From positions 1-45,815 of IMG/VR virus record IMGVR_UViG_3300028844_005013: 45,815 nt of DNA; one strand, 5' to 3'. Below, in pieces: positions 1 to 32,953 of this stretch (positions within the stretch are counted from its first letter, which is position 1; each line of letters begins with the position of its first letter). Made by a program: the position numbers and the translations under genes. The notes beneath the pieces were generated by a model. The model did not search any database and was not told where the DNA came from. It worked only from the letters and a program-made list of their open reading frames with translations. This DNA comes from a virus.

Positions 1-85
1 ACAAACAAACAAAAATAAAAAAAAACAAACAAATCTTAACTCCTCCCCTCTCCGCCGAGGTAGAAAAATGGGCCGGAGGGGAGGG
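1..85 (-). terminator. Possible leftward terminator: G/C hairpin plus long T run
   Basis: Read on the minus strand, a C/G-rich inverted repeat (about 43-85, arms with a small bulge) is followed by a long T-rich run (about 1-35, seen as A/C-rich on the plus strand). This resembles an intrinsic terminator for leftward transcription, but the T run starts some distance from the stem, so it is weak. Confidence 0.3.
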
Positions 86-235
86 GACCTCAAGCCGACA
101 TTCACATATCTGCATAAGCGAATACCATCTGGATATACGGATAAGCGAATGTGAAAAAAGGTGGGGAGGGAAAGCAACTGGAACCGCTCCAGTTCACTTC
201 CGTACTGGCCCTCTTTTTCACCACATATACGGACA

Positions 236-249
236 TGCAAATGTTTGCA
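236..249. repeat. Dispersed palindrome, one mismatch
   Basis: TGCAAATGTTTGCA differs at one base from the TGCAAACGTTTGCA palindrome found throughout the window. It is non-coding. A more degenerate relative lies at 346-359. Confidence 0.55.
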
Positions 250-364
250 TACGTTCTCCCGGCGCTTCTATTGTCTCCCCTAGCCTAGCCTTTTGCAACT
301 AACCACCGCGCTTTTGTATCCTTCCGCCATATGTTTTTGCGACTATGCAAATGATTGCACGGAA

Positions 365-620
365 GACAACGCGAGTGGACACTACGGAAGACAATAGAAA
401 CACGCGGTAAGAAAAACGGCTGTACAGACATAGACACAAGCGCGGTAAGAAAAACGAGCCAACCGAAAGATACAAAAACAATTGAGAAAAGTCCGGGAAA
501 AGTAGAACACGTGAGCGGAACGTACCAAAGGTGAGAAAAGAGCCTGTATAGACACATACAAAAGCAGCGGAAAAGCGCCTGTACAGATAGATATAGAAAC
601 ACCGCCGGAAGTTGACCGCT
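365..620. repeat. Degenerate purine-rich direct repeats
   Basis: Units containing TAGAAACAC, GCGGTAAGAAAAACG (exact at about 404 and 441) and TGTACAGA/TGTATAGA recur with roughly 35-45 bp spacing. A related stretch in the opposite orientation appears at about 2010-2050, just after the terminator of the two-gene unit. Confidence 0.45.
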
Positions 621-766
621 TTTGTAGTTATGTGGTGGTTCCATTTTCCGAATTATAGTGGCATCTCCCATCCTGAAATCAGAAAATGGTGTGAATAGAA
701 TCACACACAAGAGCATATCACCTACTTTCCGAATATGGCACTACAGATACGAGCTAAAGCATTCCA

Positions 767-786
767 TTTATATAGGTCTATATAAA
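767..786. promoter_or_regulatory. Perfect A/T inverted repeat
   Basis: TTTATATAG-GT-CTATATAAA: nine-base arms with a two-base spacer. It could be an operator or an easily melted site. No neighbouring promoter elements were clearly recognised. Confidence 0.45.
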
Positions 787-886
787 GTCTTCGTTTTTGT
801 TGCAAAAAAGTATCGCCGCCAGTAGGGGAACGAACTAAAACGCGGTTTTCTCGCTTGGAGAAGGTAAGAAAAGGCGCGGGAATGAA

Positions 887-900
887 TGCAAACGTTTGCC
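887..900. repeat. Dispersed palindrome copy 1 (non-coding)
   Basis: TGCAAACGTTTGCC: perfect 12-base core GCAAACGTTTGC at 888-899, in non-coding DNA upstream of the first two genes. Confidence 0.85.
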
Positions 901-1162
901 TTTTCTGCAAAGGGGTGGAACTAAAGCGAGTCTTGACGATTTGAAGGCTGCCCCGCTTCACGTATAGAAAGAACGCCGGCAACGGTAGCGCTCTTTCACA
1001 TTTCGATTCCCCTTCATGCAGCAAGGCAAGCCCCAGAGCTTGTTGGCTTCCACGCCATTTAGACCTTGTGGGCGGGCATGAATCGGTGGCCGGCCAAGCC
1101 ACTAGCGGTAACCTTGCCACGATGGCAAGGCCCGCGCAACTCCCTAATTGGAGCGAATCAAC

Positions 1163-1525
1163 ATGCAAACTGCATATGATTCTAACAACGCGCTACTTCG
1201 TAGCGTTCCTACCTGCGGCGACTTCGTTCGCTTCTGCGAATCCGATCACTTGGGCTTCGTCCAACTGGCCGATACGGTCGAGCTGGCCGATGAACAGGGA
1301 TTCGCCGTCCTGAACGACGGCATCCCCGTCCTGAACGACGGCATCCCTTTCGCTGGACTCTGCATCGACTCGGGTACCCTCGCGGGCGGCATGGTCATTT
1401 CGACTATCGAAAACGTCACAATTGCCAACCGACTTGATATGGAGATATCAAGTTGGTATCGGCGACTATGGCTTTCGCTGATCGCTTGCGAAAGCGCGGC
1501 CCTCGAAGCCAACGAGGTGGCATGA
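1163..1525 (+). CDS. Hypothetical protein, 120 aa
   Basis: I do not recognise this protein. ATG at 1163 is preferred over an upstream in-frame TTG at 1148 because GGAG at 1150-1153 is well spaced for it. The protein is acidic overall and contains an internal tandem duplication of seven residues, VLNDGIP, encoded by two copies of a 21-bp unit at about 1308-1349. It overlaps the next gene by four bases (ATGA), so the two are probably translated together and end at the terminator near 1990. The hairpin at 1112-1130 may lie in its leader. Coding is supported by the start signal and the overlap only. Confidence 0.6.
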   Translation: MQTAYDSNNALLRSVPTCGDFVRFCESDHLGFVQLADTVELADEQGFAVLNDGIPVLNDGIPFAGLCIDSGTLAGGMVISTIENVTIANRLDMEISSWYRRLWLSLIACESAALEANEVA

Positions 1526-1959
1526 TGGATCGGCCCCTGAAGCCCCCCTTCTGCCCCCGCGTGTCTTCCCGCCAAAGTGCCGTCAAATCGCTCGCAGCAC
1601 TTGCTGAAGGCGAGTCTGTAGATGTTGCCACGCTCGCCTGTCTCGGTGAAGCGTGGCAAGCACAATTGCTCGCAGGCAAAAGCAAGGTGACGGCGGATAA
1701 GGTGCGCAAGGTACTAACGCGCATCCGCAAGGCATCCGTCCCTGTCAAAGGCATCGACATAAAGACGGGCAAAAGGTCCGTCGTCCTTTCCTCGAAAGAC
1801 GAGCGGAAGGAAGCGCGCCAAGAGTGGCTAGCGGCAGTCGGCAAGCTGTCCGCAGCTTGCCAAGTGCCGAGCAAAGCACCACGTACCAAAGCGAAAGCGC
1901 CCACCGGCCAAGTGACCTTGACAGGTTGCGAGCCCGAAACAGAAACCACCGAGAAGTAA
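1522..1959 (+). CDS. Hypothetical basic protein, 145 aa
   Basis: Unknown function. The start is ATG at 1522, overlapping the stop of the previous gene. A second ATG at 1525 is equally possible and slightly better spaced from GAGGTGG (1514-1520). The middle is rich in lysine, arginine and alanine, and the tail (TGCEPETETTEK) is acidic. There are no membrane segments or recognised catalytic motifs. An intrinsic terminator follows 8 bases after the stop codon, so this is the last gene of a two-gene unit isolated between two long non-coding stretches. Confidence 0.65.
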   Translation: MMDRPLKPPFCPRVSSRQSAVKSLAALAEGESVDVATLACLGEAWQAQLLAGKSKVTADKVRKVLTRIRKASVPVKGIDIKTGKRSVVLSSKDERKEARQEWLAAVGKLSAACQVPSKAPRTKAKAPTGQVTLTGCEPETETTEK

Positions 1960-1966
1960 GAAAATC

Positions 1967-1997
1967 ACCCCTATCCGATTTCGGATAGGGGTTTTTT
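1967..1997 (+). terminator. Intrinsic terminator
   Basis: A perfect 12-base stem (ACCCCTATCCGA at 1967-1978, complement at 1981-1992) with a tiny loop is followed by a six-T run. It lies just after the stop codon at 1959. Confidence 0.92.
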
Positions 1998-2334
1998 CGG
2001 GCCTTGCCGTGTTTCTGTATCTTCCCGTTGCCGTGTTTTTCTTCCCTACGCCGATGCTCCAGTTGTTTTCTTTTCTGACTTTTTTTTCAGTGTTCCAGTT
2101 CATTCCCGTTGGCTCGTTTTTTTCAGGCCCATGCTCAAGCTCTCTCACTTTCTCACTTTTTTCCGACCCGGCCCGCCTCGCGCCCGCGCGTTATTTCGCG
2201 TATGCGCATGTACGTATGCGCGCCGCGCGCCCGCGCGCGCGTGGGTCATATGTATGTATGTGAGTATGCACATGTGAGGCGCAGACAGGCCCTACGCGCG
2301 CGTTGTTTGTGTGTGAGATCGCAATTTTCTGAGT

Positions 2335-2620
2335 AAAATTTTTCAATATTCGCGTATGCGTATATCTGGATATGCGTATATGTGAATTTTTCCAACTCCG
2401 CGTGCGTATGTGCGCGCGGTACTGAAGGATTTTCTAGGAAAAATTTTTCGAGTTCCGCACATACGCATATGCGAATATACTGGGAAATTTTCTGGGAAAA
2501 TTTTTTCTAGTTCCGCGGGCGTATGTATGTGTGCGCCTGCGCGCGGTACTGAAGGAAATTTTCTGGGAAAATTTTCCAATTCCGCGCCCGCGCCTGCGCG
2601 CGGTACTGAAGGAAATTTTC
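2335..2620. repeat. Iteron-like cluster: three exact 18-mers with A/T palindromes
   Basis: GCGCGCGGTACTGAAGGA occurs exactly at 2412-2429, 2539-2556 and 2596-2613. Each copy leads into an A/T palindrome block of the GGAAAATTTTCC or GAAAAATTTTTC type (for example 2438-2449); after the first two copies this ends in TTCCGC. Repeated G/C-rich sites beside A/T-rich segments are the usual make-up of replication origins, so this is the best origin candidate in the window. It could also be a packaging or regulatory region. Confidence 0.6.
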
Positions 2621-2710
2621 ATACATGTACATACATACATGTACATACTCGCGCATTGTGTATGTGTTTTAGTACGCACATTTTGAAGAAATTTTTTGAA
2701 CTTTCCCCAC

Positions 2711-2754
2711 GCACATACATACACATACTCGCGCACATACATACACATACTCGC
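2711..2754. repeat. Tandem 22-bp direct repeat
   Basis: Two abutting identical copies of a unit beginning GCACATACATACACATAC occupy 2711-2732 and 2733-2754. The unit is almost wholly alternating purine-pyrimidine. Confidence 0.75.
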
Positions 2755-2823
2755 CTGTTGGGTTTGTGCGTCAGAAACGTGCAGATTGAGAAAATTTTTC
2801 CATATGCGTTAACACCGCACAGA

Positions 2824-2837
2824 TGCAAACGTTTGCA
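2824..2837. repeat. Dispersed palindrome copy 2 (non-coding)
   Basis: Perfect TGCAAACGTTTGCA in the low-complexity region, 103 bases before copy 3. These two form the closest pair in the window. Confidence 0.9.
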
Positions 2838-2926
2838 AATGCAGATGTGCAGATATACCCCGTATGTCTGTGCGATTTTACGTGAGATTTACGTGAGATT
2901 TTCTAAACCCTGCTCACATACATACG

Positions 2927-2940
2927 TGCAAACGTTTGCA
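2927..2940. repeat. Dispersed palindrome copy 3 (non-coding)
   Basis: Perfect TGCAAACGTTTGCA. Its centre is 103 bases from that of copy 2, close to ten helical turns, which would suit looping or cooperative binding. Confidence 0.9.
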
Positions 2941-4338
2941 CGCATATGTATGCCTGTATGTGTGTGCCACATACCTACACAGACACGGGCAGTGATGTTT
3001 GTGCGTTAAACCGTGTGAAAATGAGTAAAATTTTGCGGGTATGTCTGCGCGTATGTATCCGCATATGTATGAGTAAATCTACCCCGTATGTCTGTGTGTA
3101 TGTCTGCGCATTCGCAGTCATTAGATAGTAATACCGCGTGAGTATGTGTGTATGCGGATTTGTATGAGTATATTTTCATACGTTTAGTGTACACGTTTGT
3201 GTATGTATCGCCCGTATGTTTGGGGCACGATACACCTGTATGTTTGACATACGATACGCATACATGTACCGCACATACCCAGTGTAATTCTTCGTATGTT
3301 TGTGCATCGTGTATGCGTATGTTTCGTGTATGAAATGTATGCACAATACATGTACACATTTTGTGTATGTTTCGGGTATGTATCGTGTATGTTAAACACA
3401 CACAATATCGGGTATGTTTCGTGTATGTATCGCATACATACCTGCCTGCAATATTGTATGTGTATGTGTGCGATATCGTATGCGATATGTATGCGCAATC
3501 ATACATGCAATTTTATACATACATACACATATGATTGATATACATGTACTGTACATACACGAGGCATTTTGTGTGTGTGTGTATGCGTATGTATGTGTGA
3601 TATCGTTTGTGTCTGTTTGGTACATGGTTTGTGTATGTGTGCCGCGTATCGAGTATGTATATTTTTGCGACGTAAGTGTATGTATACGAGCGCCTTATCG
3701 TATGTATGGTGTATGTATGATAACGTATGTATGATAACATACACGACGTAATGTGTATGTATTTTGTGCGCCATATCGTGTATGTATTTTGTATGTCTGT
3801 GGTTCATACACATACATACGACATACATACTCAGACAATTTTTGCCTCGTGTATGTATCGTGTATGTATGAGGGATTTCGTATGAGTCTGTGTCGTGTAT
3901 GTTTGTGGATCGCATATGTGTATGTGTGCCGTGTATGTACGAGTATATTTCTGTATGCATCCCACGTATGTATGTGTATGTAACGTGTATGTATGGGTGT
4001 GCATCCCACGTGTGTATGTGTATGCAACGTGTATGTCTGCACATGTATGTGTATGCAACGTGTATGTGTGAGTGTGCAACGTGTATGTGTGTGCCTGTAT
4101 GTGTATGCATCCCACGTATGTGTGAGTACGTGCCGAGTATGTGCCGTGTATGTGTGAGCAGATTTCCGTATGTTGTGCCGTGTATGTATGAGTACATTTT
4201 CATATGTATGGCATACATACTCACACATGTGCGGGCATACATGTGCCATGATGTGTGCATACACGGACGCATCGTGCAAACATGTACCCGCCACGTCGCG
4301 CACATCAAGGGTATGTGCTATGATCGTGTCTCCGTATG

Positions 4339-4357
4339 AAATTTACTACGTAAATTT
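4339..4357. promoter_or_regulatory. Inverted repeat upstream of the rightward gene block
   Basis: AAATTTAC-TAC-GTAAATTT: perfect eight-base arms with a three-base spacer, about 30 bases upstream of the putative -35 of the promoter at 4387. Possible operator. Confidence 0.5.
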
Positions 4358-4386
4358 TAGGAGAGGGGGAATAAAAAAAAACTTGC

Positions 4387-4414
4387 TTGAAATTTTGGAA
4401 TTCTGCGCTATGGT
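4387..4414 (+). promoter_or_regulatory. Putative sigma70-like promoter for the rightward block
   Basis: TTGAAA (4387-4392), a 16-base spacer and TATGGT (4409-4414) lie 45 bases upstream of the first gene of the 4460-10159 block. The 16-base spacing matches that of the two stronger leftward promoters in this window. Confidence 0.5.
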
Positions 4415-4459
4415 AGTGGCTCACTTCCGAAATGCGAATCACGAATCACGAGCCACGCC

Positions 4460-4882
4460 ATGCGAATCCAGCACGTCCAGCCCACACCACGCCCCACACT
4501 CCGCATCGACACGTCCCGCTACGAGGAGCACGATGCGGAGGAGACGGTTGACCACGTTCGGCCCCGTAAGCGTTACGACGCCATGTATGAGGCGGAGCGT
4601 AGCGAGGAAGTCGTTGCTGCCCTTCCCGAGTACATCCGCAGCACGTCCCTCGCAGACGCTGCGAAGGAACTCGATCTGCCCGGTTACTGGCAAGGGCCGC
4701 TCCCCGACGGGGCGCATCACGTCGGACACATGCCCGGCATGACGATGGTGGGTATCAGCCATGTGGCTGTGCTTGACACCTACGGTGACCCCGTCGCCAT
4801 CTTCGTCAATCGCTGGCGGACTGCCATCGACAAGTGTGAAGAGGCTTGCGTCGCACTTGGTACCCATAACCTGTACTGCTAG
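4460..4882 (+). CDS. Hypothetical protein, 140 aa; first gene of the rightward block
   Basis: Unknown function. The first 35 residues are Arg/Pro/His-rich, followed by a helix-rich stretch. The C-terminal half contains the segment MVGISHVAVLDTYGD followed by an Ala/Glu/Cys-rich helix. The protein at 5757 has a matching MAGIAHVAVTDATTY segment followed by a similar helix, so the two look like distant paralogues. ATG at 4460 has no strong Shine-Dalgarno sequence. It follows the putative promoter at 4387-4414 closely. Confidence 0.7.
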   Translation: MRIQHVQPTPRPTLRIDTSRYEEHDAEETVDHVRPRKRYDAMYEAERSEEVVAALPEYIRSTSLADAAKELDLPGYWQGPLPDGAHHVGHMPGMTMVGISHVAVLDTYGDPVAIFVNRWRTAIDKCEEACVALGTHNLYC

Positions 4883-4914
4883 ACACATACAACATAATAC
4901 ACAAGGAGGCACAC

Positions 4915-5184
4915 ATGCCTAAGTCAGGACCACGTCTACGATGGGCAGCGAAGGCTGAACTCAATCGCTTTGTTTACAAGCCAGCCAATGCACGGGAAGC
5001 TGCACACAAGTACACCACACAGGTACAACGTAAGCTCATACGTATCAAGTACCTGCAAGTCAAGCTCGCCGCTGATGGGCAGGATTTCCACTGGCAACCG
5101 CAAATCGACTTGGAGCGGGAAGCGTGCAAACGTTTGCTTCGAGGTCGTGAATATGTACTAGACACCCCCGGAGGCATACAATGA
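4915..5184 (+). CDS. Hypothetical basic protein, 89 aa
   Basis: Unknown. A strong AAGGAGG precedes ATG at 4915. The protein is rich in lysine and arginine with predicted helical character (AREAAHKYTTQVQRKL), which would suit nucleic-acid binding, though no family is recognised. A copy of the dispersed palindrome lies within the gene at 5126-5137, encoding Cys-Lys-Arg-Leu. The stop codon overlaps the start of the next gene (ATGA). Confidence 0.78.
   Translation: MPKSGPRLRWAAKAELNRFVYKPANAREAAHKYTTQVQRKLIRIKYLQVKLAADGQDFHWQPQIDLEREACKRLLRGREYVLDTPGGIQ
5126..5137. repeat. Dispersed palindrome copy 4 (in gene 4915-5184)
   Basis: Perfect GCAAACGTTTGC core inside coding sequence, read as C-K-R-L. 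Confidence 0.88.
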
Positions 5185-5477
5185 CGAAGGCTCAGGAAGC
5201 GGTGAAATTCGCTCGATCCAAGCGAGGCAAGGCGTGGCTGGCACACTTGAGTGTGTCTGCCACTCGGAAACAGGAGTACACATTCTCAGACACATGTGAT
5301 GTGGCAGGCCGCAGCAAATCTGCCACGGAATCCTTCCTCACCACGTCTCTACAGACGGTCACAGACCACCTCGCATACAAGGTGGGCAAGGCGGCACACA
5401 ACATGTGCATACATCCAAGTGAGCGTAATGCGACGACGCTCCTCAAACTTGCCGTACTGAATTCACAGTATGTGTAA
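5181..5477 (+). CDS. Hypothetical protein, 98 aa
   Basis: Unknown. Its ATG overlaps the preceding stop codon, with GGAGG just upstream, so translation is probably coupled. The N-terminus is basic (MTKAQEAVKFARSKRGKAW). The rest is Ser/Thr/Ala-rich with no membrane segment or recognised motif. Confidence 0.75.
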   Translation: MTKAQEAVKFARSKRGKAWLAHLSVSATRKQEYTFSDTCDVAGRSKSATESFLTTSLQTVTDHLAYKVGKAAHNMCIHPSERNATTLLKLAVLNSQYV

Positions 5478-5493
5478 CCCGACTTTCTTATAT

Positions 5494-5503
5494 AAAATTT
5501 TTC
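5494..5503. repeat. A/T motif AAAATTTTTC upstream of gene 5523
   Basis: One of several RAAATTTTTC-type elements found 15-60 bases upstream of rightward genes (also 7204, 8205, 10159, 13110). Function unknown. Confidence 0.5.
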
Positions 5504-5522
5504 AGACACACAGGAGATACAC

Positions 5523-5747
5523 ATGAGCTATGACCAGAGCGACATCGACCACCTCGTAAGCAAGTGCAGCAGCATCGGGCACCACGTCACACAGATGACC
5601 GAGTGGGGCTGGCATGTGTCTGAGATCGCTGCCGTAGCGTGGCGAATGGCGAATCGGGGATGCTGTGGCAGTTACGACGATCTGATTTTCGCCCAACGTG
5701 ACGGTGGATCACACGCTGTCATGTTTGGGTTTAACTACGGACACTGA
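5523..5747 (+). CDS. Hypothetical protein, 74 aa
   Basis: Unknown short protein. ATG at 5523 follows CAGGAGATACAC. It has two Cys/His-containing patches (HLVSKCSSIGHH and ANRGCCGSY) that are not spaced like a standard zinc finger. It lies between A/T motif 5494 and the gene at 5757. Confidence 0.72.
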   Translation: MSYDQSDIDHLVSKCSSIGHHVTQMTEWGWHVSEIAAVAWRMANRGCCGSYDDLIFAQRDGGSHAVMFGFNYGH

Positions 5748-5756
5748 GGTATACAC

Positions 5757-6050
5757 ATGAACTGCTGGCCTAATACAATCGAAGTGGACAACGCGGAACT
5801 GAACACCGTGTGTGCAGCTATTGGTGTACCTACATACGACGCCAAATACCGCGGCAGATTCTACGGTTTCCACGAACCGGACCTTGTCATGGCAGGTATT
5901 GCACACGTTGCCGTGACCGACGCCACTACATACAGGGTGCATTGTGTGTACATACTATACCCGTGGCAGGGTATGGTGCGTGGCTACCGTGTCCGGTTTG
6001 ACGCTGCCGAAAAAGCTGCCGAAATTCTCACACAAGGAGCATATGTATGA
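5757..6050 (+). CDS. Hypothetical protein, 97 aa (related to the 4460 gene product)
   Basis: Unknown. It shares the pattern [VM]xGI[SA]HVAVxD and a following Ala/Glu helix with the C-terminal half of the protein at 4460, suggesting an old duplication. It starts ten bases after the previous gene and overlaps the next by four bases. Confidence 0.75.
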   Translation: MNCWPNTIEVDNAELNTVCAAIGVPTYDAKYRGRFYGFHEPDLVMAGIAHVAVTDATTYRVHCVYILYPWQGMVRGYRVRFDAAEKAAEILTQGAYV

Positions 6051-6271
6051 GTGATACCATACACATGATACGGAGCTACCCATACGATGCATGGGCTGTG
6101 TGTTCACATGTAGACGGGGTGACACAAGTGAACAGAGTGTTCCTATCGGAACAGGCCGCATGTGATTATGCGGAAAGTTCTACAGAATTTTTCGGCTACT
6201 TTAACCCGGAGTCTCCCGACCCGGAATTCTTTGTACAGAAAACATGCATAACCATACATGAGGCACCATGA
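6047..6271 (+). CDS. Hypothetical acidic protein, 74 aa
   Basis: Unknown. The start overlaps the previous stop (ATGA) and is preceded by AAGGAGC. The product is rich in aromatic and acidic residues (TEFFGYFNPESPDPEFF), as many small early phage proteins are. The end overlaps the next gene by four bases. Confidence 0.73.
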   Translation: MSDTIHMIRSYPYDAWAVCSHVDGVTQVNRVFLSEQAACDYAESSTEFFGYFNPESPDPEFFVQKTCITIHEAP

Positions 6272-6522
6272 TGCAGACACAGGAATGGGTACGAGTAACA
6301 GCAAAGCGGGTCGAAGTTCTCTTCGATGAATATGGCCCATACATGAACGACCTGTACGCCCTGATTGACATCCACGTTCCGGCAACGATGTCGGACCTTG
6401 CAATCTCCCGTCTAGTCAAACGTAAACTGGGCATCACAGGGATGCGCAAAGACACATGGGCAGACGATACACACTCATGGAGAGACGGGAACATAGGGGC
6501 ATATGCCGTAGTGCATGGCTGA
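6268..6522 (+). CDS. Hypothetical protein, 84 aa
   Basis: Unknown. Overlaps the previous gene by four bases; two consecutive ATG codons begin it. The sequence looks globular with mixed alpha/beta character. No motif is recognised. Confidence 0.73.
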   Translation: MMQTQEWVRVTAKRVEVLFDEYGPYMNDLYALIDIHVPATMSDLAISRLVKRKLGITGMRKDTWADDTHSWRDGNIGAYAVVHG

Positions 6523-6581
6523 GAATCGCGGCAACTTTACCAGAATTTTTTACAACTACACACAATACAGGAGCATACACG

Positions 6582-6995
6582 ATGCCTAAGCAAATCAAAT
6601 GGACCGGCAACAAGAAAGCGATTGACCTACTACACACACTCATGGAGGGCGCCAACCCTGAGACTGATATCGCCGCGGCACGGAAGGCATGGTGCAACAT
6701 CGAGTGGAACACTGTGTCTGTAGACATAGATGATCGGGTAGACACTGCCCTCTTGCCGGTCAAGTGGGAATGGCTGAAAGCCGTACTCATTGAGGAGTAT
6801 GTGAACGAAGACACACGTACCTACGAAGGTGATCTTTGGCAAGGCGATGACAAGGTATGGCGACTGAACGTCCACGTCCCAAGCTGCGGACATGAACATG
6901 ACTGCTGTGGCTGTGTGTGTGGTGCCTCGATGAAGTTCGCCAACTTTGGTGACGACACTACTGGCATAGTAGCGGTCACCTCATACAACTACTAG
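6582..6995 (+). CDS. Hypothetical protein, 137 aa, with His/Cys cluster
   Basis: ATG at 6582 is chosen because CAGGAGCATACACG precedes it; the frame extends further upstream only through non-conserved sequence. The C-terminal third has a dense His/Cys cluster, CGHEHDCCGCVCG, that probably binds a metal. The fold is not recognised. A 238-base gene-free stretch follows. Confidence 0.78.
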   Translation: MPKQIKWTGNKKAIDLLHTLMEGANPETDIAAARKAWCNIEWNTVSVDIDDRVDTALLPVKWEWLKAVLIEEYVNEDTRTYEGDLWQGDDKVWRLNVHVPSCGHEHDCCGCVCGASMKFANFGDDTTGIVAVTSYNY

Positions 6996-7225
6996 ATTTC
7001 CAAACCCGTACCTAGTTGCGGTTGACCACATGAATGATGGCCCTGTGTAAACAGGTGTACCGGACGTGTGGATACGACCGTAGTGCTAGGATGTAGCCGC
7101 CCCAACGTAGCGTAAGGCTACGGGGCTCGCCTCCAACCCGCCTTACATATGCACATGATACGAGCACCCCCGACAGACGTGTGTTAGACCGCGCGCTTTA
7201 TCCAAAATTTTTCCAAAAACAAGAG
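6996..7225. other. Gene-free leader with hairpins
   Basis: This 230-base gap holds CCTGT-GTAA-ACAGG near 7044 and a stronger two-part hairpin at 7099-7126 (GCCCC...GGGGC enclosing GTAGC...GCTAC). It ends with an A/T motif (7204-7213) and the palindrome at 7226. No tRNA-like TPsiC arm is present and no T run follows the hairpin, so it may be a leader or small RNA rather than a terminator. Confidence 0.4.
7099..7126. other. Two-part hairpin
   Basis: Outer stem GCCCC/GGGGC and inner stem GTAGC/GCTAC around a GTAAG loop, with a three-base bulge on one side. Possible structured RNA element in the leader of gene 7234. Confidence 0.45.
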
Positions 7226-7237
7226 GCAAACGTTTGC
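7226..7237. promoter_or_regulatory. Dispersed palindrome copy 5, overlapping a start codon
   Basis: The core GCAAACGTTTGC begins at the last base of the AAGAGG Shine-Dalgarno (7221-7226) and covers the proposed TTG start at 7234. A protein bound here, or the self-complementary RNA, could directly affect expression of the downstream genes. Confidence 0.85.
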
Positions 7238-7452
7238 AACTGCAAAACAATACAAAAGAAGTTTTCGGGTCTCTCCTAAAGGAGAGCAGGGCGGATGGGC
7301 ACATCCACCCCTATTCATACACAACTGGGGTACTGATCTCCATCCTTCGCCAAGCACCTCAGGGGGTACGCCACTATGTGCTTACTGAGATGCAGTCACA
7401 CGCCGAATGGCTGGTAGCCAACCGCGCTGATAAGGCAAAGGGGGAAGCATGA
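7234..7452 (+). CDS. Hypothetical protein, 72 aa, TTG start
   Basis: Unknown. The only reasonable start is TTG at 7234, seven bases after AAGAGG; no in-frame ATG exists near the 5' end. The start codon lies inside palindrome copy 5. The product has a helical C-terminus (LTEMQSHAEWLVANRADKA). The stop overlaps the next start by four bases, beginning a chain of coupled genes. Confidence 0.65.
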   Translation: MQLQNNTKEVFGSLLKESRADGHIHPYSYTTGVLISILRQAPQGVRHYVLTEMQSHAEWLVANRADKAKGEA

Positions 7453-7559
7453 TCTCGGAAACCGCATACAACATCGGCACCTTTCTGGTGCTGCTCCCGG
7501 TAGTAGGTATGTTCCTACTTGCCTGTATACAAGACGCAATCAATGGAGGTGGCAAGTGA
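7449..7559 (+). CDS. Small membrane peptide, 36 aa
   Basis: An ATG overlapping the previous stop starts a 36-codon frame encoding one hydrophobic segment (residues about 8-26: NIGTFLVLLPVVGMFLLAC) and a short polar tail. It is probably a single-pass membrane peptide of unknown role. The following GTG-started gene overlaps its stop, which supports its being translated. Confidence 0.65.
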   Translation: MISETAYNIGTFLVLLPVVGMFLLACIQDAINGGGK

Positions 7560-7726
7560 TTAGGTACCTAATCAAAACAGAGATAGACGGGGTGGAACTG
7601 CGCTTGATCCAGTCCCGGTACGGGTATGTCACTGTGTATGGTATGGACCGTGCCACCCACAAGACATTGGCCGACGCTCTTGCCGACTACAACGGGTGTG
7701 TACGACACGCCCTACAGAGTGTATAA
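7556..7726 (+). CDS. Hypothetical protein, 56 aa, GTG start
   Basis: GTG at 7556 lies just after GGAGGTGGCAA and overlaps the TGA of the 36-aa peptide gene. The frame is open for 56 codons to the TAA at 7724, and the next ATG follows with no gap. The product starts IRYLIKTEIDGVELRLI and looks like a small alpha/beta protein. It is unknown. Confidence 0.65.
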   Translation: MIRYLIKTEIDGVELRLIQSRYGYVTVYGMDRATHKTLADALADYNGCVRHALQSV

Positions 7727-7951
7727 ATGGCCGCTCCCTCAGAGGACTACCTTATCCTGCAAGGACTCGCCCGTAGTGCTGAGAAGTGTTTGGAATATGC
7801 CGACATTTTCTCATCACCTGAACTGATTCTCGAATATGAGAACGAGGCACTTGCGTCTATGCAACTGGGTCTACACATGTCGGGGAGTGACTTCGACCTG
7901 TTCAAGCTACACCCCTTCAACCAATTGGAACAAGTAACCGGAGACAAGTAA
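7727..7951 (+). CDS. Hypothetical acidic helical protein, 74 aa (paralogue at 18196)
   Basis: Unknown. Residues 5-30 (SEDYLILQGLARSAEKCLEY) match the start of the 70-aa protein at 18196 (NEQDIIVEGLFSQSHRALEN) in pattern: acidic residue, two hydrophobics, GL, then a helix ending LExAD[IL]F. These are two members of one small phage family at separate places. It abuts the stop of the previous gene. Confidence 0.75.
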   Translation: MAAPSEDYLILQGLARSAEKCLEYADIFSSPELILEYENEALASMQLGLHMSGSDFDLFKLHPFNQLEQVTGDK

Positions 7952-7952
7952 C

Positions 7953-8183
7953 ATGTACATGGTAACCTTCAAGTGTGATGGGCTAGGCCGCACGGAAACG
8001 TCCGGCCCAATAGAAACCCTGAAGGAGGCATTGGATATGTATGCCAAGGAGGTGGCTGAGACTGCCATCGCAAACCTACACCCCGCAGTCGCAAACCTAC
8101 ACGAGGAGGGTGCAGAAGCACATGCTCGTGAGGCGTACCTCGACTGTATGAAGTCGATGAAGGTGGTGAAAATTATAGCGTGA
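7953..8183 (+). CDS. Hypothetical protein, 76 aa
   Basis: Unknown. ATG at 7953 is nine bases after GGAG. The product has a short beta-strand start (MYMVTFKCDG) and a long Ala/Glu helix with an internal near-repeat (IANLHPAVANLHEEGAEAH). Confidence 0.74.
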   Translation: MYMVTFKCDGLGRTETSGPIETLKEALDMYAKEVAETAIANLHPAVANLHEEGAEAHAREAYLDCMKSMKVVKIIA

Positions 8184-10210: not shown

Positions 10211-11245
10211 ATGAGCAACGACATCCTTAACGCCTTTGTCGATCAAGTCGGAGATGAATCCCCCACCCTTACCCTCGAACAGATCAGCGAGGGATTGGGC
10301 CGCAAGCGTGTCTCAGTCACACTGCGCCGCAAGGTGAACGAGATGGTCAAGGCAGGTCTGCTTGATCACACTGACGGAAGCTACTCGCTCTCAGATGCAG
10401 GAGTGGAGATGGTGCTGGAAGGCACCCCGGTCGAAGAGACCACTGCCCCTGAGCCTGAGATCACCAGTGAGTTCGGCGACGACGGCAGCGAACCTGAAGA
10501 GGTGGTGACTGTTGAAGCTGAAATTGTCGAAGACGACGTTGACCTCCCACCTGAAGGGAGCTTCCCGTTTGTCGATGAAGACGAACCCGAGATCGTGTAC
10601 TCAGCGGAGGCAGTCGAATACCCGATGGTGGCCCGTGTCATGTGGGAATCTGAGGGGTTGTCCCTGAGTGGCATCACCGAAACCGACATCACCGTCCGTA
10701 AGGAATCCATTCGGGAAGCGGCACAGGTTGCAAAGACGATGAACGACCGGCTTGGTCTTGTACAAGGTGAACTCCTGTATGAGATCAAGGCAGGTGAGTA
10801 CTGGCAAGAGTGGGAGTTCGACAGCTTCGAGGCATACGTCGAGTCTGAGCTTGGATACAAAGCCCGCAAGGCCAAGTACATGATCGACATCTACGCCAAG
10901 TTTGTGCTTGAGTTGGGCCTGCCAATGGAGCGACTGAAGGCACTCGAATGGTCGAAGGCAAAAGAGGTGCTGACGATCATCGACAAAGAGAACAGCGACG
11001 AAGTTCTCGGGGTACTCGAAGAGTCCACCTTCAAGGAAGTGCAGTCATATGCCCGAGCTAAGAAGGGCAAAGCTGACGAGGTAGGTTTTACCCGGTTGTC
11101 CTTCTCCCTGAGTGAGGATCAAGCAGACATGGTCAAGCTGGCGCTTGCCTCTGCCTGTAAGGTGCTTGACTCAGACGAACAGGGGCGGGCCTTGGTAGCC
11201 ATGGCTGAGGAGTATGTCGCAACCTACGGTAGCGGAGATGCCTGA
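10211..11245 (+). CDS. Putative winged-helix DNA-binding protein, 344 aa
   Basis: Three parts are visible. Residues 1-70 look like a winged helix (TLEQISEGLGRKRVSVTLRR followed by KAGLLDHTDGSYSLSD). Residues about 75-130 form an acidic low-complexity linker. Residues about 160-290 form a helical domain (LVQGELLYEIKAGEYWQEW, then FEAYVESELGYKARKAKYMI). The last region resembles helical DNA-binding domains of ParB/KorB-like or phage DUF3102-type proteins, from memory only. It is a candidate regulator or DNA-organising protein and could be tested as the binder of the dispersed palindrome. It lies just upstream of the SWIM/AAA+/VWA set and overlaps the SWIM gene. Confidence 0.75.
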   Translation: MSNDILNAFVDQVGDESPTLTLEQISEGLGRKRVSVTLRRKVNEMVKAGLLDHTDGSYSLSDAGVEMVLEGTPVEETTAPEPEITSEFGDDGSEPEEVVTVEAEIVEDDVDLPPEGSFPFVDEDEPEIVYSAEAVEYPMVARVMWESEGLSLSGITETDITVRKESIREAAQVAKTMNDRLGLVQGELLYEIKAGEYWQEWEFDSFEAYVESELGYKARKAKYMIDIYAKFVLELGLPMERLKALEWSKAKEVLTIIDKENSDEVLGVLEESTFKEVQSYARAKKGKADEVGFTRLSFSLSEDQADMVKLALASACKVLDSDEQGRALVAMAEEYVATYGSGDA

Positions 11246-11642
11246 GACGTTCACCGACGTTATCCGTGCTAACTATGCACACGTCTACCTCTTCACCGAG
11301 GTGGGCGTGTGCAAAGTAGCGCGAGATAAATATGGAAATTTTTCAGAAGTTTTCTACCGGTGCGACACAACAACATGTGAGTGCCCAGCAGGCACACACG
11401 GTGTACGATGTCGCCACATCGAAATGAGAATGCAAACGTTTGCATCAAAGAAAGTAGTGAACGCAGTTAAACTAAGCGAGGTGCTAAGGAAATACGAAAC
11501 GCTCACGTTCGGCACACAAGTGACACACACCGTGCGTCCCGGTTGTGCTAACGTGATCTCCCGGAAACCCCGCGGAGACGAACCTTACCCGATGGTTGTC
11601 GCCATCGAGAATCATATCCCCCTATACTGGATCTTTACCTAA
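11238..11642 (+). CDS. Small SWIM zinc-finger protein, 134 aa
   Basis: A SWIM-type motif CxC-x(n)-CxH is visible about residues 48-64 (CDTTTCECPAGTHGVRCRHI). SWIM fingers bind zinc and mediate DNA or protein contacts. The same motif occurs at the N-terminus of the next gene's AAA+ protein, so the two are likely partners or products of domain duplication. The start is uncertain: ATG 11238 gives an eight-base overlap, ATG 11214 a longer one. Palindrome copy 8 (11431-11444) lies inside. The stop overlaps the next start (TAATG). Confidence 0.8.
   Translation: MPETFTDVIRANYAHVYLFTEVGVCKVARDKYGNFSEVFYRCDTTTCECPAGTHGVRCRHIEMRMQTFASKKVVNAVKLSEVLRKYETLTFGTQVTHTVRPGCANVISRKPRGDEPYPMVVAIENHIPLYWIFT
11431..11444. 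repeat. Dispersed palindrome copy 8 (in gene 11238-11642)
   Basis: Perfect TGCAAACGTTTGCA inside coding sequence, read as Q-T-F-A. Confidence 0.9.
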
Positions 11643-13078
11643 TGAGTACTACAACGCCAATCGCACACCTCCCCTCTGCCTTCGTCCTTCGCTCCAATAA
11701 ACGCGAGTGGAAGTTCTACCACCTGAGCACTGACCTCGGGGGCAATCCTACAGTGGACGCAAAGCACACAGTCAAACGGATACGAGGGAAGGCGTCTTGT
11801 ACTTGCTCGGCCTTTCACTCCGCGGATCAATGTAAACACACCCGTGTCCTCAAGTACAACTACCCTGCGGAGAGCAGCAAGCGGGTGCCTAAGAGTGAAA
11901 GCGTTCACTCCCACTACCTTGACGAGGACATGGTAACACCCCTTGCCTTCCCGACCCCCATCCATGCGGAAACAGGTGACCTCTGTGTCATCCCTAAGGA
12001 CAGCAAGTACCTGACTGCTTTTCCCCCACCTTCCCCCGATACACCTTTAGATGAGTTTATCACCACGTTCCGTAGCTCGGGGGTATCCCATACCCACACC
12101 TACCAGCGGCTGGTACATGACCTCGAACACATGTTCCTGAAACACCGGGAACCATCCTTGGCCTACAAGGCCCCTGAGACTATCATCTACGTTAACCGTG
12201 AAATGGAGTTTCCCTCTGCTATCTCTACCTTCACGGCAGCTACCGGCAAGGGCAAGCCTTGGGAGGGCGTGCCCAAACCTGCCGGGTTCTCTGTGTCTGA
12301 TGAGGATTGGCGTGTTCTTCTGTACTGCCTGACTAAGGCGAAACCTGTGATGTTGATCGGTGGTACAGGCTGTGGCAAGACCGAACTTGTGGCCCATGCT
12401 GTTGACGCACTTGATCGTGATCTGGAATCGTTCAACTGTGGGGCTATGCAAAACCCGCGGACTAGTCTGATTGGTCGGACTCACCTGAATGACAAGGGCA
12501 CCTTCTTTAAGAAGGCTCGCTTTGTGGAAGCGGTGACTGAGGATAACATGGTTATCCTTGCAGATGAAATCTCCCGCAGTTCTGTGGATGTGTTCAACAT
12601 CCTCCTGCCTGTGCTTGATCGACAGGGGTACATCAGCATAGACGAGAGCGAGGAGACTGAACAGGTGTTCGTTGCCCCGACTGTTGCGATTGTTGCCACT
12701 GCGAACATCGGGTCTGAGTACACAGGTACCACACAGATTGACCGTGCCTTGTCTGATCGCTTCCTGAAAATCAACCTCGACTACCCCCAACCTGAGGAGG
12801 AGGTACGTGTATTGCGTGACCGGTACGAGGTGCCAAAGCAGTGGGTTACCGACCTCGTCAACTGTGCATGGTCACAGCGGAAGCTGGCTAGGGAAGATGA
12901 ATTCTCCATTGAGATCTCTACCCGTATGCTCTTCGACACAGTCCAGATGGTTGCGGATGGTATCCCGGCACGTGAGGCTGTCGGGGCGAGTATCCTGTCT
13001 GCCTTTGCATCAGACGGAGGCGAGGACTCAGAGCAGGCAAACGTGAGGCTCCTGTTCTCGAGGAGCAACATGCTGTAG
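11642..13078 (+). CDS. SWIM domain-AAA+ ATPase (MoxR/CobS-like), 478 aa
   Basis: An N-terminal SWIM zinc finger (C53, C55, C64, H66) precedes a AAA+ module. Walker A is GGTGCGKT (240-247), Walker B is MVILADE (303-309), the sensor-1 segment is IVATAN (to N355), and ALSDRF (369-374) is typical of MoxR-type ATPases. Such ATPases act as remodelling chaperones together with a VWA-domain partner, as CobS with CobT. The next gene encodes exactly such a partner. Fusion to a SWIM finger is unusual and suggests targeting to DNA or to the small SWIM protein encoded just upstream. A role in cobalamin synthesis is unlikely, since no other pathway gene is present. Confidence 0.9.
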   Translation: MSTTTPIAHLPSAFVLRSNKREWKFYHLSTDLGGNPTVDAKHTVKRIRGKASCTCSAFHSADQCKHTRVLKYNYPAESSKRVPKSESVHSHYLDEDMVTPLAFPTPIHAETGDLCVIPKDSKYLTAFPPPSPDTPLDEFITTFRSSGVSHTHTYQRLVHDLEHMFLKHREPSLAYKAPETIIYVNREMEFPSAISTFTAATGKGKPWEGVPKPAGFSVSDEDWRVLLYCLTKAKPVMLIGGTGCGKTELVAHAVDALDRDLESFNCGAMQNPRTSLIGRTHLNDKGTFFKKARFVEAVTEDNMVILADEISRSSVDVFNILLPVLDRQGYISIDESEETEQVFVAPTVAIVATANIGSEYTGTTQIDRALSDRFLKINLDYPQPEEEVRVLRDRYEVPKQWVTDLVNCAWSQRKLAREDEFSIEISTRMLFDTVQMVADGIPAREAVGASILSAFASDGGEDSEQANVRLLFSRSNML

Positions 13079-13109
13079 GATAACGTGTAAAGGACGCTGG
13101 TTTTTAACT

Positions 13110-13119
13110 GAAATTTTTG
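13110..13119. repeat. A/T motif GAAATTTTTG upstream of gene 13130
   Basis: In the 51-base gap between the AAA+ and VWA genes, just before GAGGATTTATT and the start codon. Confidence 0.4.
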
Positions 13120-13129
13120 AGGATTTATT

Positions 13130-15208
13130 ATGGCATCTTGGGCAACAGGTATAACTAAGTGGTGGGAGCGGGGAGAAGAGGACCTCTTCTCTTTCCGTGG
13201 TATTAAGCGGGCAAACTTTGAACAGTATAAGAAGCGCCGCTCAATGGTCGAGCTAACTCGGAAGGCGTATATGACCTGTCGTATTCACGGCATGGATAGC
13301 CCCGAGATCAAGTTTGATCACAACTCGCTGGAAAGCAACGGGGAAACTAACTGTAAGGGCAAGATAAGCCTGAACCCACTACTCATACACAACCACCCGA
13401 TAGAGGAGCATGAGGGGTTGGTACTAGGGGTAGCCCTACATGAAGCGGAGCATAACCTTATCTCTAAAGAGATAGTGACGGAGATGGGTCGCGCTGACCA
13501 GTTCCTCAGCCGGGCTTTGAACTACTGCGAGGATGCTCGGGTAGAGTGGTCGGCGCGGGAACGCAGCCCGGGGTTCGCTAAGTATCTGGACCAACGGTCT
13601 GCCATCACCATGACCAAGGGGTTTGATGTACTCCGTAAGGAGTGGGAGGATATTGACCCTTTCACTAAAGCTACCACCATTAGCCTACTCACCCTGAAGT
13701 ATGATCGAGCGGTGCTCGACTTCATGCGGGATTGGGAGCGAGAAGGTATCCACCCGTTTAAGATCGCGTCTGCCCTCCGGCCCCTATGTAAGGATGTGAC
13801 GGGGGTGAAGAAAGCGGCTGAGGAATTAGCGAAGATGTTTAAGTACTTTGCTAGACGTGACGGCGCGGATTTTGATCTCAAAAAATTCGTGGAAGAATTC
13901 GGTGAGGGTGACGCTGACGACGAAGCAGGGGAAGGTGGGGCAAGCGAAGGTGAGGCTGGCGAGAAAGGTGAGACCGGCGAGAAAGGTGAAGCTGGCGAAG
14001 GTACTCCCAGTGAAGGTGAAGGCGAGGGTGAAGGTGAAGGTGGGGGCAGTGACGGCGGTGAGGCAGGCGAAGAAGGTGGTGACGGTGCAGGCACAGAGTG
14101 GAGTCGCGAGGAGGAACAGCAGGCAAGACGCTCATGTGCTAGCACCGGGAGGGGGGAGGCAGAAAGTAGTTCCGAACCTACAGCCTATATGTCACAACGT
14201 CGTGCTAGTGGGGACATCTGCGAGCAGCATGAGAGGCTAGGGGAACATGCCGCTAGGGTTGTTAAAGAAATGATACAGGCAGCGGAGGAAGATCTCGCAG
14301 ACAAAGTCGAGGAGCTTGGAGACGAAGAGAACAACAATTACGGCTCGGTAGTATCCCGCAAAGTGTCCCGGTCTACCCCAAAGATTGGGGGTAAGTTCTA
14401 CATGGAGAAGAAGTACATTGACACAGTCACTAAGCGTTGCCGCAGTAAGGTCAAGTTACTCCAACGGAAGGTTTCTATTGTACGCCATGCTGATAAGAGT
14501 TCCTTCCTGAAGGAACGGCAGGAGGGCGAGATTGACTTTGATAAGTTAGCCTCTGCCCGCATCTCCCGTAGGGTTTTCAAACTTGCAAACGTTTGCAAAA
14601 CTGAGGGACTTAGCTTGTGCTTGCTCTTAGACGAATCGGGGTCTATGCATTTCGATTACGGTCACAAAGGCTCCTTTGTTGACTTGGATACCCGTGCATC
14701 AAAGGTATTGGATATGGCATACACAATCGTAGCTGCCTTGCAGAAAGCTCCGAACATGGAGATCTTCGTATACTCACATGGTTCAGCACCGGGTTCCGAT
14801 TATGACTGCATGTACAAGGAGTTGTACTCCCCCGAGAATCCCGACATCAAAGGGATCTTCAACTACACCGGGTCTGTACAAAACTACGACCACATTGCCA
14901 TCAAACGGATAGGCGAGGAGTTCCTACAGCGAGCTACCTGTGAGCGTAAGATGTTCCTTGTTCTCTCGGACGGGGCACCTGAAGGTGAGGACTACGGCGG
15001 TGAAGGTGCAAAGAGGTTGACCGGCGCTGAGGTCAAGCGGTTAGAGAAGAAGGGCGTAAACATGTCGATGGTACAGATTGGATTTGCTGACCCCGACCTT
15101 ATGTTCACACACTACTTGGATCTCCGGGGGCATGAGTCGTCAGGTGACCTGACTTCACCCCTAGCTAAGTTCCTGATGAAGCAGATGAAAAAGTCTAAGG
15201 TGCAGTAA
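13130..15208 (+). CDS. Metallopeptidase-like + VWA protein (CobT-like), 692 aa
   Basis: The N-terminal domain carries HEAEH (104-108), a HExxH zinc motif, followed by NYCEDARVEW (131-140), which could supply a further ligand. A long Gly/Glu low-complexity linker (about 250-330) leads to a C-terminal VWA domain with a MIDAS motif LLLDESGSM (D501, S503, S505) and a later LVLSDGAPEG segment. This is the layout of predicted metallopeptidase-VWA (DUF2201/CobT-like) proteins that pair with MoxR/CobS ATPases, here encoded just upstream. Palindrome copy 9 (14584-14597) lies at the start of the VWA domain. The target of the complex is unknown. Confidence 0.88.
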   Translation: MASWATGITKWWERGEEDLFSFRGIKRANFEQYKKRRSMVELTRKAYMTCRIHGMDSPEIKFDHNSLESNGETNCKGKISLNPLLIHNHPIEEHEGLVLGVALHEAEHNLISKEIVTEMGRADQFLSRALNYCEDARVEWSARERSPGFAKYLDQRSAITMTKGFDVLRKEWEDIDPFTKATTISLLTLKYDRAVLDFMRDWEREGIHPFKIASALRPLCKDVTGVKKAAEELAKMFKYFARRDGADFDLKKFVEEFGEGDADDEAGEGGASEGEAGEKGETGEKGEAGEGTPSEGEGEGEGEGGGSDGGEAGEEGGDGAGTEWSREEEQQARRSCASTGRGEAESSSEPTAYMSQRRASGDICEQHERLGEHAARVVKEMIQAAEEDLADKVEELGDEENNNYGSVVSRKVSRSTPKIGGKFYMEKKYIDTVTKRCRSKVKLLQRKVSIVRHADKSSFLKERQEGEIDFDKLASARISRRVFKLANVCKTEGLSLCLLLDESGSMHFDYGHKGSFVDLDTRASKVLDMAYTIVAALQKAPNMEIFVYSHGSAPGSDYDCMYKELYSPENPDIKGIFNYTGSVQNYDHIAIKRIGEEFLQRATCERKMFLVLSDGAPEGEDYGGEGAKRLTGAEVKRLEKKGVNMSMVQIGFADPDLMFTHYLDLRGHESSGDLTSPLAKFLMKQMKKSKVQ
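14584..14597. repeat. Dispersed palindrome copy 9 (in gene 13130-15208)
   Basis: Perfect TGCAAACGTTTGCA inside coding sequence, read as A-N-V-C. Confidence 0.9.
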
Positions 15209-16214: not shown

Positions 16215-16444
16215 GTAGGTACTACCGGCAGAAGGGACGCAAGACTGCTGATGCTGGCCGTAAGCTGTCCACCTACATCCCATCCGAGAGGATGTGGATG
16301 GTGGATACCATAGATAACTACGTGTTTAATTTGGAGCGGGAGATGGCAACACCGTATAGCCGTAGTAAGTTCATCCTTGATATGATCGAGCTTGGTTTGC
16401 AAACGTTTGCAGAGAACCCCGACAATGAGAAGGTGATCCGGTGA
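16211..16444 (+). CDS. Putative ribbon-helix-helix protein, 77 aa
   Basis: After a basic arm (MSRYYRQKGRKTADAGRK), the segment LSTYIPSERMWMVDTIDNYV followed by SRSKFILDMIELGLQ fits a ribbon-helix-helix (CopG/Arc-like) fold: one strand and two helices. Such proteins are dimeric DNA-binding repressors and commonly bind palindromes. Palindrome copy 10 (16398-16411) lies within its own 3' coding region. The assignment is by pattern only. Confidence 0.65.
   Translation: MSRYYRQKGRKTADAGRKLSTYIPSERMWMVDTIDNYVFNLEREMATPYSRSKFILDMIELGLQTFAENPDNEKVIR
16398..16411. repeat. Dispersed palindrome copy 10 (in gene 16211-16444)
   Basis: Perfect TGCAAACGTTTGCA inside coding sequence, read as Q-T-F-A, near the 3' end of the putative ribbon-helix-helix gene. 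Confidence 0.9.
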
Positions 16445-16797
16445 AACACTTCAAGGTAACATTCAAACGCAAAGACGAGTGGGTACATGCACTGATACAG
16501 GATCAAGTAGATACGAAGCGACAGTTGGGAATCCACACTGATGCCTCGTTTGAAATCATCCGGTTACTCAAGGAAACAATAACAAGGGACGGGGCCGGTG
16601 GCCCGGTGTACAAGAAGGACACACGTGTTGACTCCCTCCTACAAGACGTATCTATGCAAGACAAACAGGAGGTACGTGAGCTTGCGGCGGCAATGAAGAG
16701 CATCCCCGAAACATGGGTAGCAGGCTCCGTGTTACTCAAAGCCCTCGACATTATAGAGGGACCACAACATTCAAGGAAACGTAAAAGTGATAACTAA
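16441..16797 (+). CDS. Hypothetical protein, 118 aa
   Basis: GTG at 16441 overlaps the previous stop. Strongly charged and mostly helical (DSLLQDVSMQDKQEVRELAA), with a basic tail (SRKRKSDN). Unknown function. Confidence 0.74.
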   Translation: MKHFKVTFKRKDEWVHALIQDQVDTKRQLGIHTDASFEIIRLLKETITRDGAGGPVYKKDTRVDSLLQDVSMQDKQEVRELAAAMKSIPETWVAGSVLLKALDIIEGPQHSRKRKSDN

Positions 16798-24917: not shown

Positions 24918-25586
24918 TTACTCCCTCCCTAAAAACTTGAGTACCTGTTGTGACGCTGCCCACCCGGCTGACTCCTTGAAGGTAAGCTCAGGGAACTTCT
25001 GCTTGAACACACTAAGGGGATCATGCATGAAGACATCGAAGGATACCTCGCTCCATCGACCGTACTGCAAACGTTTGCACCACTTCGCCAAGGTCCCCCT
25101 ATACTTCTCAACTAACTTGGTAGCTCGGTCGTTGGTAAGGAGATCCCGCACTAGGAAGCTATCCAGAATTCGGTTAAGCCTTCTACGTACATGGACGATG
25201 TGACACTTGATCCCCCGAGCTTCTAACTCTCTCACGTATACAGGTAGAGTTAGGGACAACCGAGGGTCTTTGATACAGATAGCGGGACTGTCGTAACGAT
25301 CAAGGATATCCTTCACCTGCTGGTCATACTTTGTCTCCGTCATTAGGTGGCTGAAGTCTGTCTCTAACTCAGATAGAACCCAAGTCCCCGCCTCACCAAG
25401 GATAGTGTCATTGAGTCGCACTACCCTCTCATCCTCGAAGAACCCTTTGGGGTTGCCGCGGTCTGCGGGGATAAGGTCCAGCATCTGAACCGGCTCCCCT
25501 TTGTAGTGAGCACGGTAGAAAGTACCAGCCAGTGCCGAGGTACCAGACCGACCCACACCTACCAAAAGATAGCATACCTCTGTCAT
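24918..25586 (-). CDS. Sulfotransferase-family protein, 222 aa
   Basis: The 5'-phosphosulfate-binding loop-like GVGRSGTSALAGTFY (about 10-24) and the later ICIKDPRLSL segment match the PAPS-binding layout of sulfotransferases. Such genes occur in some environmental phages; the acceptor is unknown but could be a virion or cell-surface glycan made with the GalE and glycosyltransferases encoded in this window. Palindrome copy 13 (25066-25079) lies inside. Its start overlaps the recA stop, so the two are made from one message. Confidence 0.78.
   Translation of the reverse strand: MTEVCYLLVGVGRSGTSALAGTFYRAHYKGEPVQMLDLIPADRGNPKGFFEDERVVRLNDTILGEAGTWVLSELETDFSHLMTETKYDQQVKDILDRYDSPAICIKDPRLSLTLPVYVRELEARGIKCHIVHVRRRLNRILDSFLVRDLLTNDRATKLVEKYRGTLAKWCKRLQYGRWSEVSFDVFMHDPLSVFKQKFPELTFKESAGWAASQQVLKFLGRE
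25066..25079. repeat. Dispersed palindrome copy 13 (in gene 24918-25586)
   Basis: Perfect TGCAAACGTTTGCA inside coding sequence, read as C-K-R-L on the minus strand. Confidence 0.9.
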
Positions 25587-26680: not shown

Positions 26681-26681
26681 T

Positions 26682-27233: not shown

Positions 27234-27243
27234 GGGGTCTTCC

Positions 27244-28602: not shown

Positions 28603-28631
28603 TTCTGATTCTCCTAATATTACTTTCTTGT

Positions 28632-28659
28632 ACTATACACCCTCAACCCCTAGAGTCAA
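28632..28659 (-). promoter_or_regulatory. Sigma70-like promoter for the helicase-recA genes
   Basis: On the minus strand: TTGACT (28654-28659), a 16-base spacer and TATAGT (28632-28637), in the 60-base gap after the polymerase gene and about 30 bases before the helicase start at 28602. Confidence 0.72.
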
Positions 28660-28662
28660 GTG

Positions 28663-31487: not shown

Positions 31488-31488
31488 C

Positions 31489-31809: not shown

Positions 31810-31822
31810 TTCATTTACCCTT

Positions 31823-31836: not shown

Positions 31837-31838
31837 TT

Positions 31839-32940: not shown

Positions 32941-32953
32941 GGTTAAGATTATA

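Follow-up and report, generated by a model that had tools for sequence, protein, structure and literature searches.

A viral gene set pairing a SWIM-finger AAA+ ATPase with a HExxH-VWA protein

Introduction

Phages commonly carry a gene pair encoding a AAA+ ATPase and a protein that combines a HExxH motif with a von Willebrand factor A (VWA) domain, and these pairs are unexplained, bearing conflicting annotations as B12 synthesis, peptidase or chaperone genes. What would such a pair act on when its motor also carries a zinc finger? The question is raised by a 45.8-kb record of an uncultured virus (IMG/VR record IMGVR_UViG_3300028844_005013, positions 1 to 45,815; the whole stretch is called the window here), which encodes the pair with a SWIM finger on the ATPase, a stand-alone SWIM protein and a further upstream protein, UP. 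We tentatively favor, at somewhat less than even confidence, a remodelling machine of the NorQD kind that probably includes a zincin domain and that SWIM fingers tether to the recombination apparatus of the virus.

The AAA+/HExxH-VWA pair is already known in phages, having been described as "cobST" in haloarchaeal and other tailed viruses (PMC8651126) and, in group 2.2 jumbo phages, as a MoxR chaperone whose co-chaperone is a metallopeptidase-vWA protein, with a proposed role in virion assembly (PMC7824862). Full-text literature searches, with most subscription papers outside their coverage, turned up no account of the SWIM version. An earlier sequence-only reading of the window had called MoxR-VWA pairs known remodelling chaperones; it needs the correction that the AAA+/HExxH-VWA pair is not new in phages.

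Results

Four genes form the set

Three open reading frames lie nearly end to end on the + strand, in the succession that the sequence-only reading had given: a stand-alone SWIM finger protein (11214–11642, 142 aa), a SWIM-AAA+ protein (11642–13078, 478 aa) and a HExxH-VWA protein (13130–15208, 692 aa), separated by intergenic gaps of −1 bp and 51 bp, respectively. The module had been placed at 11238–15208; its end stands, but 11238 is a later in-frame ATG and the first gene opens at 11214. It had also been taken to comprise three genes, overlooking UP (10211–11245, + strand, 344 aa), which overlaps the start of the stand-alone SWIM gene and belongs to the set as its fourth member. UP has no Pfam family above the cut-off and matches phrog_17202, a family without assigned function; it contains a helical domain at about residues 160–290 and, by eye, a possible N-terminal winged-helix part. 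The motifs of the other proteins are where they had been read, with C53-x-C55/C64-x-H66 and Walker A (G240–T247) in the SWIM-AAA+ protein and HEAEH (104–108) and D501-S503-S505 in its partner.

SWIM fingers occur on the motor and on a separate protein

The SWIM-AAA+ protein consists of a SWIM finger (residues 12–73), a mostly low-confidence linker (74–210) and a AAA+ domain (215–478; AAA_5 and CbbQ_C). The predicted zinc ligands C53, C55, C64 and H66 (11798–11839, + strand) are invariant across seven aligned SWIM-AAA proteins, which are 31–38% identical to that of the window, and the motif is present in 14/14 distinct fusions. In the stand-alone protein the ligands take the form C55-x-C57...C66-x-H68, and among 11 aligned stand-alone SWIM proteins, 12–18% identical to the window's, they are the sole invariant columns. 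Pfam alone would have missed SWIM, because the fused finger scores below threshold (PF04434, 16.4 bits, the cut-off being 19.6) and the stand-alone protein has no match.

We modelled the fused finger with AlphaFold2, which placed strands at 13–19, 22–30, 36–47 and 50–53 and helices at 56–61 and 65–73 around the ligands, with block-mean pLDDT of about 74–86 over residues 11–70. The predicted order (strands, CxC, short helix, CxH, then helix) is that of a SWIM zinc finger, in which strands precede and a helix follows the CxC...CxH motif; the fold was modelled for the fused finger only. The sequence-only reading had named a model lacking this fold as the outcome that would undo its claim, and the confident fold around the ligands meant that this outcome did not arise.

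CxC..CxH matches at loci L124 and L125 were judged by eye not to be SWIM. Small stand-alone SWIM proteins are found near SWIM-less AAA genes at L094 (937–1251) and L111 (11809–12048), and the SWIM link may extend beyond the SWIM clade through these.

Motor and partner resemble NorQ and NorD

The SWIM-AAA+ protein matches AAA_5 (2.6e-16) and CbbQ_C (5.8e-9) in Pfam and the CobS-like family 249 in PHROGs (3.6e-32). Its AAA+ domain is nearest by sequence to Midasin, CbbQ, NorQ and CobS, and its best fold matches are NorQ (9qh8, E 5e-18) and CbbQ (6l1q). Walker A/B, N355, R373 and R428 are invariant; with Walker A and B, sensor 1, an arginine finger and CbbQ_C, the domain has the predicted make-up of a MoxR/CbbQ/NorQ-type AAA+ ATPase.

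The partner has no Pfam match in the window and weak "peptidase" and CobT matches in PHROGs. It is predicted to contain a helical zincin-like domain (28–257), an acidic disordered linker (about 258–410) and a VWA domain with a NorD-like extension (about 424–692), a layout it shares with NorD, whose N-terminal domain is joined to the VWA domain by a linker that is unresolved there (PMC13036017). The VWA domain matches that of NorD (9qh6_G, 2.5e-10) and CobT/NorD, and the presence of a metal-ion-dependent adhesion site (MIDAS; D501-x-S503-x-S505-M506, 14630–14647, + strand) beside a AAA+ gene is what a predicted MoxR-VWA partner of the NorD/CobT/CbbO type should show. This motif and D614 are invariant in 20 aligned partners, SWIM-less ones included. 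The canonical MIDAS threonine (DxSxS-T-D) is absent from the window protein, its position aligning, in an alignment-dependent way, with a conserved N585-Y586-D587 in the SWIM clade; L004 and L006 retain it.

The same 20 partners share an invariant putative zinc site, H104-E105-x-x-H108...E134-D135-x-R137 (13439–13540, + strand), and 86/88 partner frames contain HExxH; in the other two, a contig start truncates the frame. In the structure model, H104-E-x-x-H108 lies on helix 91–111 and E134 on the next helix (124–145), giving HExxH and a third ligand on a downstream helix, the predicted signature of a zincin. This invariant site suggests that the protein is probably a peptidase. The zincin-like domain alone matched no solved structure by sequence and gave no fold match.

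Taken together, sequence and model comparisons make a NorQD-like remodeller a well-supported prediction of the machine type, and the NorQ/CbbQ and NorD matches bear out the view that a MoxR/CbbQ-class AAA+ protein and a VWA protein form a remodelling pair here. Distances among AAA and VWA proteins correlate (r = 0.84), as shared viral descent by itself would produce.

The CobS-like and CobT-like matches also bear on a different reading, in which the pair is a viral CobS/CobT cobaltochelatase and uses the CobN of the host to increase vitamin B12 production. This was proposed for viral cobST pairs, whose two-gene core is identical (PMC8651126), and both PHROG and Pfam CobS/CobT_C matches fit it. 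However, the AAA+ protein is at least as near to CbbQ/NorQ as to CobS, and the CobT N-terminal domain model matched 0/19 partners, with Pfam CobT_C finding the VWA part only, in 11/19. PDB CobT matches likewise cover only the C-terminal part of the partner, and the window model aligns over most of its length with CobT-like/VWA models of Gordonia, Haloarcula and other or uncultured phages, at low TM-scores. The window set differs from cobST in having SWIM fingers and UP as well, and chelation would leave both the SWIM fingers and the invariant HExxH...E unexplained; we regard it as very unlikely.

MoxR-vWA cores also occur in predicted conflict systems (PMC7159879), and the sequence-only reading had offered defense as a possible role, such that the set would serve anti-phage defense or superinfection exclusion as a relative of these ternary systems. 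Matches to bpMoxR (MoxR-vWA-beta-propeller) were found in 5/7 SWIM-AAA proteins, the best at 1.9e-8, and the generic AAA_5 match ranked above them, but PADLOC returned weak generic AAA matches only, none of them meaningful or placing the set in a defense family. Among the identified neighbors no sensor or effector partner known from conflict systems was seen, and SWIM goes without mention in PMC7159879. Defense is thus without support, and we consider it extremely improbable.

SWIM-AAA genes mostly lie by recombination genes in one apparent lineage

Queried on its own, the AAA protein of the window gave no viral match, and alignment-based scanning was required: a profile scan of IMG/VR, followed by a second with SWIM-bearing members. 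The first profile scan recovered hundreds of AAA+ domain relatives, most of those retained being SWIM-less and many having a HEGSH-VWA partner nearby. After the second, there were 14 distinct SWIM-AAA proteins, window included, so that the viral SWIM-MoxR fusion, for which the sequence-only reading had proposed a search, is no one-off. Every SWIM-AAA record searched contains the window's DNA polymerase (32–42% identity) and 14/14 SWIM-clade records its UvsX (37–46%), and for this reason the records appear to be one virus lineage. SWIM rows clustered in a quick tree of the AAA+ proteins (3 changes, with 12 expected from shuffling). The window and L010, however, branch close to the base, where support is poor, and this clustering does not establish a single origin. 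Among 50,697 deposited phage records, AAA+ relatives were found, none covering the SWIM part, and stand-alone SWIM had no match; a plasmid search gave only CbbQ/NorQ-type and MoxR relatives among the matches listed.

In these viruses the set has a characteristic place. The usual order in relatives is UvsX, Holliday-junction resolvase, Cas4-type exonuclease, RusA, UP, SWIM, SWIM-AAA, HExxH-VWA, the four recombination genes lying close upstream in most of them. Stand-alone SWIM was found in 12/13 SWIM-AAA viral records searched and UP in 13/13, against 0/6 SWIM-less records for UP, counts that are not phylogenetically independent; the SWIM gene is immediately upstream of SWIM-AAA in 10/12 relatives.

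This neighborhood bears directly on the main rival to a recombination role, namely that the set is a virion-assembly chaperone and maturation protease, in which the pair remodels structural proteins, the metallopeptidase cleaves them and SWIM adds substrate choice only. Exactly this was proposed for the SWIM-less pair of group 2.2 jumbo phages, which likewise joins a AAA+ protein to a protein with an N-terminal metallopeptidase and a VWA domain, in a paper whose text does not mention SWIM; an archaeal virus MoxR-vWA pair needed for tail assembly is cited there (PMC7824862). GroEL also makes up 7/70 sampled neighbors of SWIM-less pairs. The neighbors of the SWIM clade, by contrast, are recombination genes and not structural ones, and the virus of L007, in which the SWIM-AAA and VWA genes are located elsewhere, still keeps its UP-SWIM pair with the recombination genes, about 50 kb from its AAA gene. 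The suggestion of a phage maturation machine thus has a published counterpart for the SWIM-less pair, but the SWIM relatives lie in a replication-recombination operon; we judge virion assembly possible but rather unlikely for them.

An apparent UP match beside the L007 AAA gene (4751–5539) proved to be a different protein, homologous to window 36435–37142. In the same virus, a UvsX-like open frame of 1015 aa (L139, 11281–14325, − strand) matches the window UvsX in two blocks about 2.1 kb apart, which suggests an intein.

Among SWIM-less pairs the neighborhoods vary, with thymidylate synthase at 5/70 sampled neighbors alongside GroEL, and with DNA polymerase and UvsX-like genes in the vicinity of the Bacteroides phage BS162P1 pair, so that context is lineage-specific. 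At least seven loci have a gene of about 540 aa just 3′ of the SWIM-less pair (for example, L028 9108–10724 and L031 9143–10750).

UP connects the set to recombination operons and to a fused motor

In Vibrio, Aeromonas and Rhizobium phages the recombination genes largely follow the order given above and end in UP, the other three genes not being nearby. A contig from an Isosphaeraceae (Planctomycetota) metagenome-assembled genome (MAG) encodes the same AAA+ protein with a UP-like domain replacing SWIM (E 8e-10), adjoining a HEVGH-VWA gene, and the AAA of this fusion groups among the SWIM rows in the AAA+ tree. Domain fusions often indicate working partners. Across 45 Isosphaeraceae genomes we found no further relative of the fusion. 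By eye, the fusion and its HExxH-VWA gene (L106, 4916–8384) stand among bacterial-looking genes, and this planctomycete locus is possibly a domesticated viral set.

A location beside replication genes, a protease-like domain and fingers possibly associated with DNA would also suit host takeover, in which SWIM and UP aim the motor-protease at host DNA-bound proteins (nucleoid, RNA polymerase or repair complexes) to destroy or displace them. The conserved linkage, however, is to the virus's own recombination genes, and we consider this quite unlikely; like B12 chelation, it is a weaker rival than virion assembly.

Surroundings of the set in the window

A small gene 3′ of the VWA gene (16441–16797), possibly encoding a ribbon-helix-helix protein, is kept in four relatives (L011, L091, L093 and L096). 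Over positions 1–8000, especially 2700–4210, convincing genes are sparse and ACAT/GTAT-type tandem repeats occur in imperfect form, with periods of 22–52; the stretch is odd for a phage and may represent either extended non-coding DNA or a chimeric end. At 24918–42948, several glycosyltransferase-like genes (by eye) share the leftward strand of the replication genes, as do a probable sulfotransferase (24918–25586, by eye) and a baseplate-hub-like gene with a weak PHROG match. A serine-repeat protein and repeats with periods of 6, 15, 30 and 90 bp occupy 43403–44719 and 45708–45815, close to where the record stops.

Discussion

The machine that we favor would work as follows. The AAA+ protein would form an ATP-driven hexameric ring, the VWA protein would dock on it and grip the substrate through its MIDAS, and the N-terminal HExxH...E domain, a probable zincin, would clip or trim the remodelled protein. 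Its address would come from the SWIM finger on every motor subunit, the second SWIM protein and UP, which together would hold the machine at the recombination-replication complex of UvsX, resolvase and exonuclease; its task there would be to take apart or process protein-DNA complexes. SWIM is likely a recruitment element, as the sequence-only reading supposed, and gene order, one fusion and analogy make recombination complexes the best-supported address to which SWIM and UP may direct it.

To our knowledge, SWIM is not found on NorQ/CbbQ motors. NorQ-NorD (PMC13036017) and CbbQ-CbbO share the AAA+ fold and VWA partner with the viral set but serve cellular metal insertion or Rubisco repair. 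In E. coli, yehL-yehM-yehP-yehQ is a cellular cluster of MoxR AAA+, VWA and SWIM proteins; there SWIM is on a separate protein, the AAA is distant (hhalign E 3.7e-8), and the VWA and SWIM matches are weak. The analogy for the address comes from the eukaryotic SWIM proteins Sws1/Shu2, which work with RAD51 paralogs and thereby regulate RAD51 (PMC6316741), much as a SWIM finger gene in the virus lineage lies near one for a RecA-family recombinase; Sws1/Shu2 lack AAA+/VWA, and their physical partnership is demonstrated, whereas a viral counterpart is putative. In Deinococcus deserti, the genes most strongly induced by radiation include one for a SWIM protein, on the same list as recA and ruvB genes (PMC5552922). 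A more specific form of this idea, that the set is a SWIM-guided, ATP-driven metalloprotease remodelling recombinase filaments or recombination intermediates, merging a Shu-like SWIM adaptor with a NorQD-like motor, we hold to be unlikely.

Several observations weigh against a recombination role. In the window the four genes stand together, with about 8 kb between them and the exonuclease gene, which is on the opposite strand, and neither there nor in L007 are the AAA-VWA genes adjacent to recombination genes. The operon position is common to one virus lineage and is thus not independent evidence, and the phages that have UP with the recombination operon, the other three genes not nearby, indicate that the cassette is inessential for recombination generally. 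Some SWIM-less relatives carry the pair near GroEL, pointing to protein folding or assembly. Tethering of a NorQD-like remodeller to the recombination apparatus nevertheless remains the reading we prefer. A lineage in which a zinc-fingered motor and its partners lie in a recombination operon offers a handle on the targets of such pairs, and would also connect SWIM proteins with RecA-type recombination in phages.

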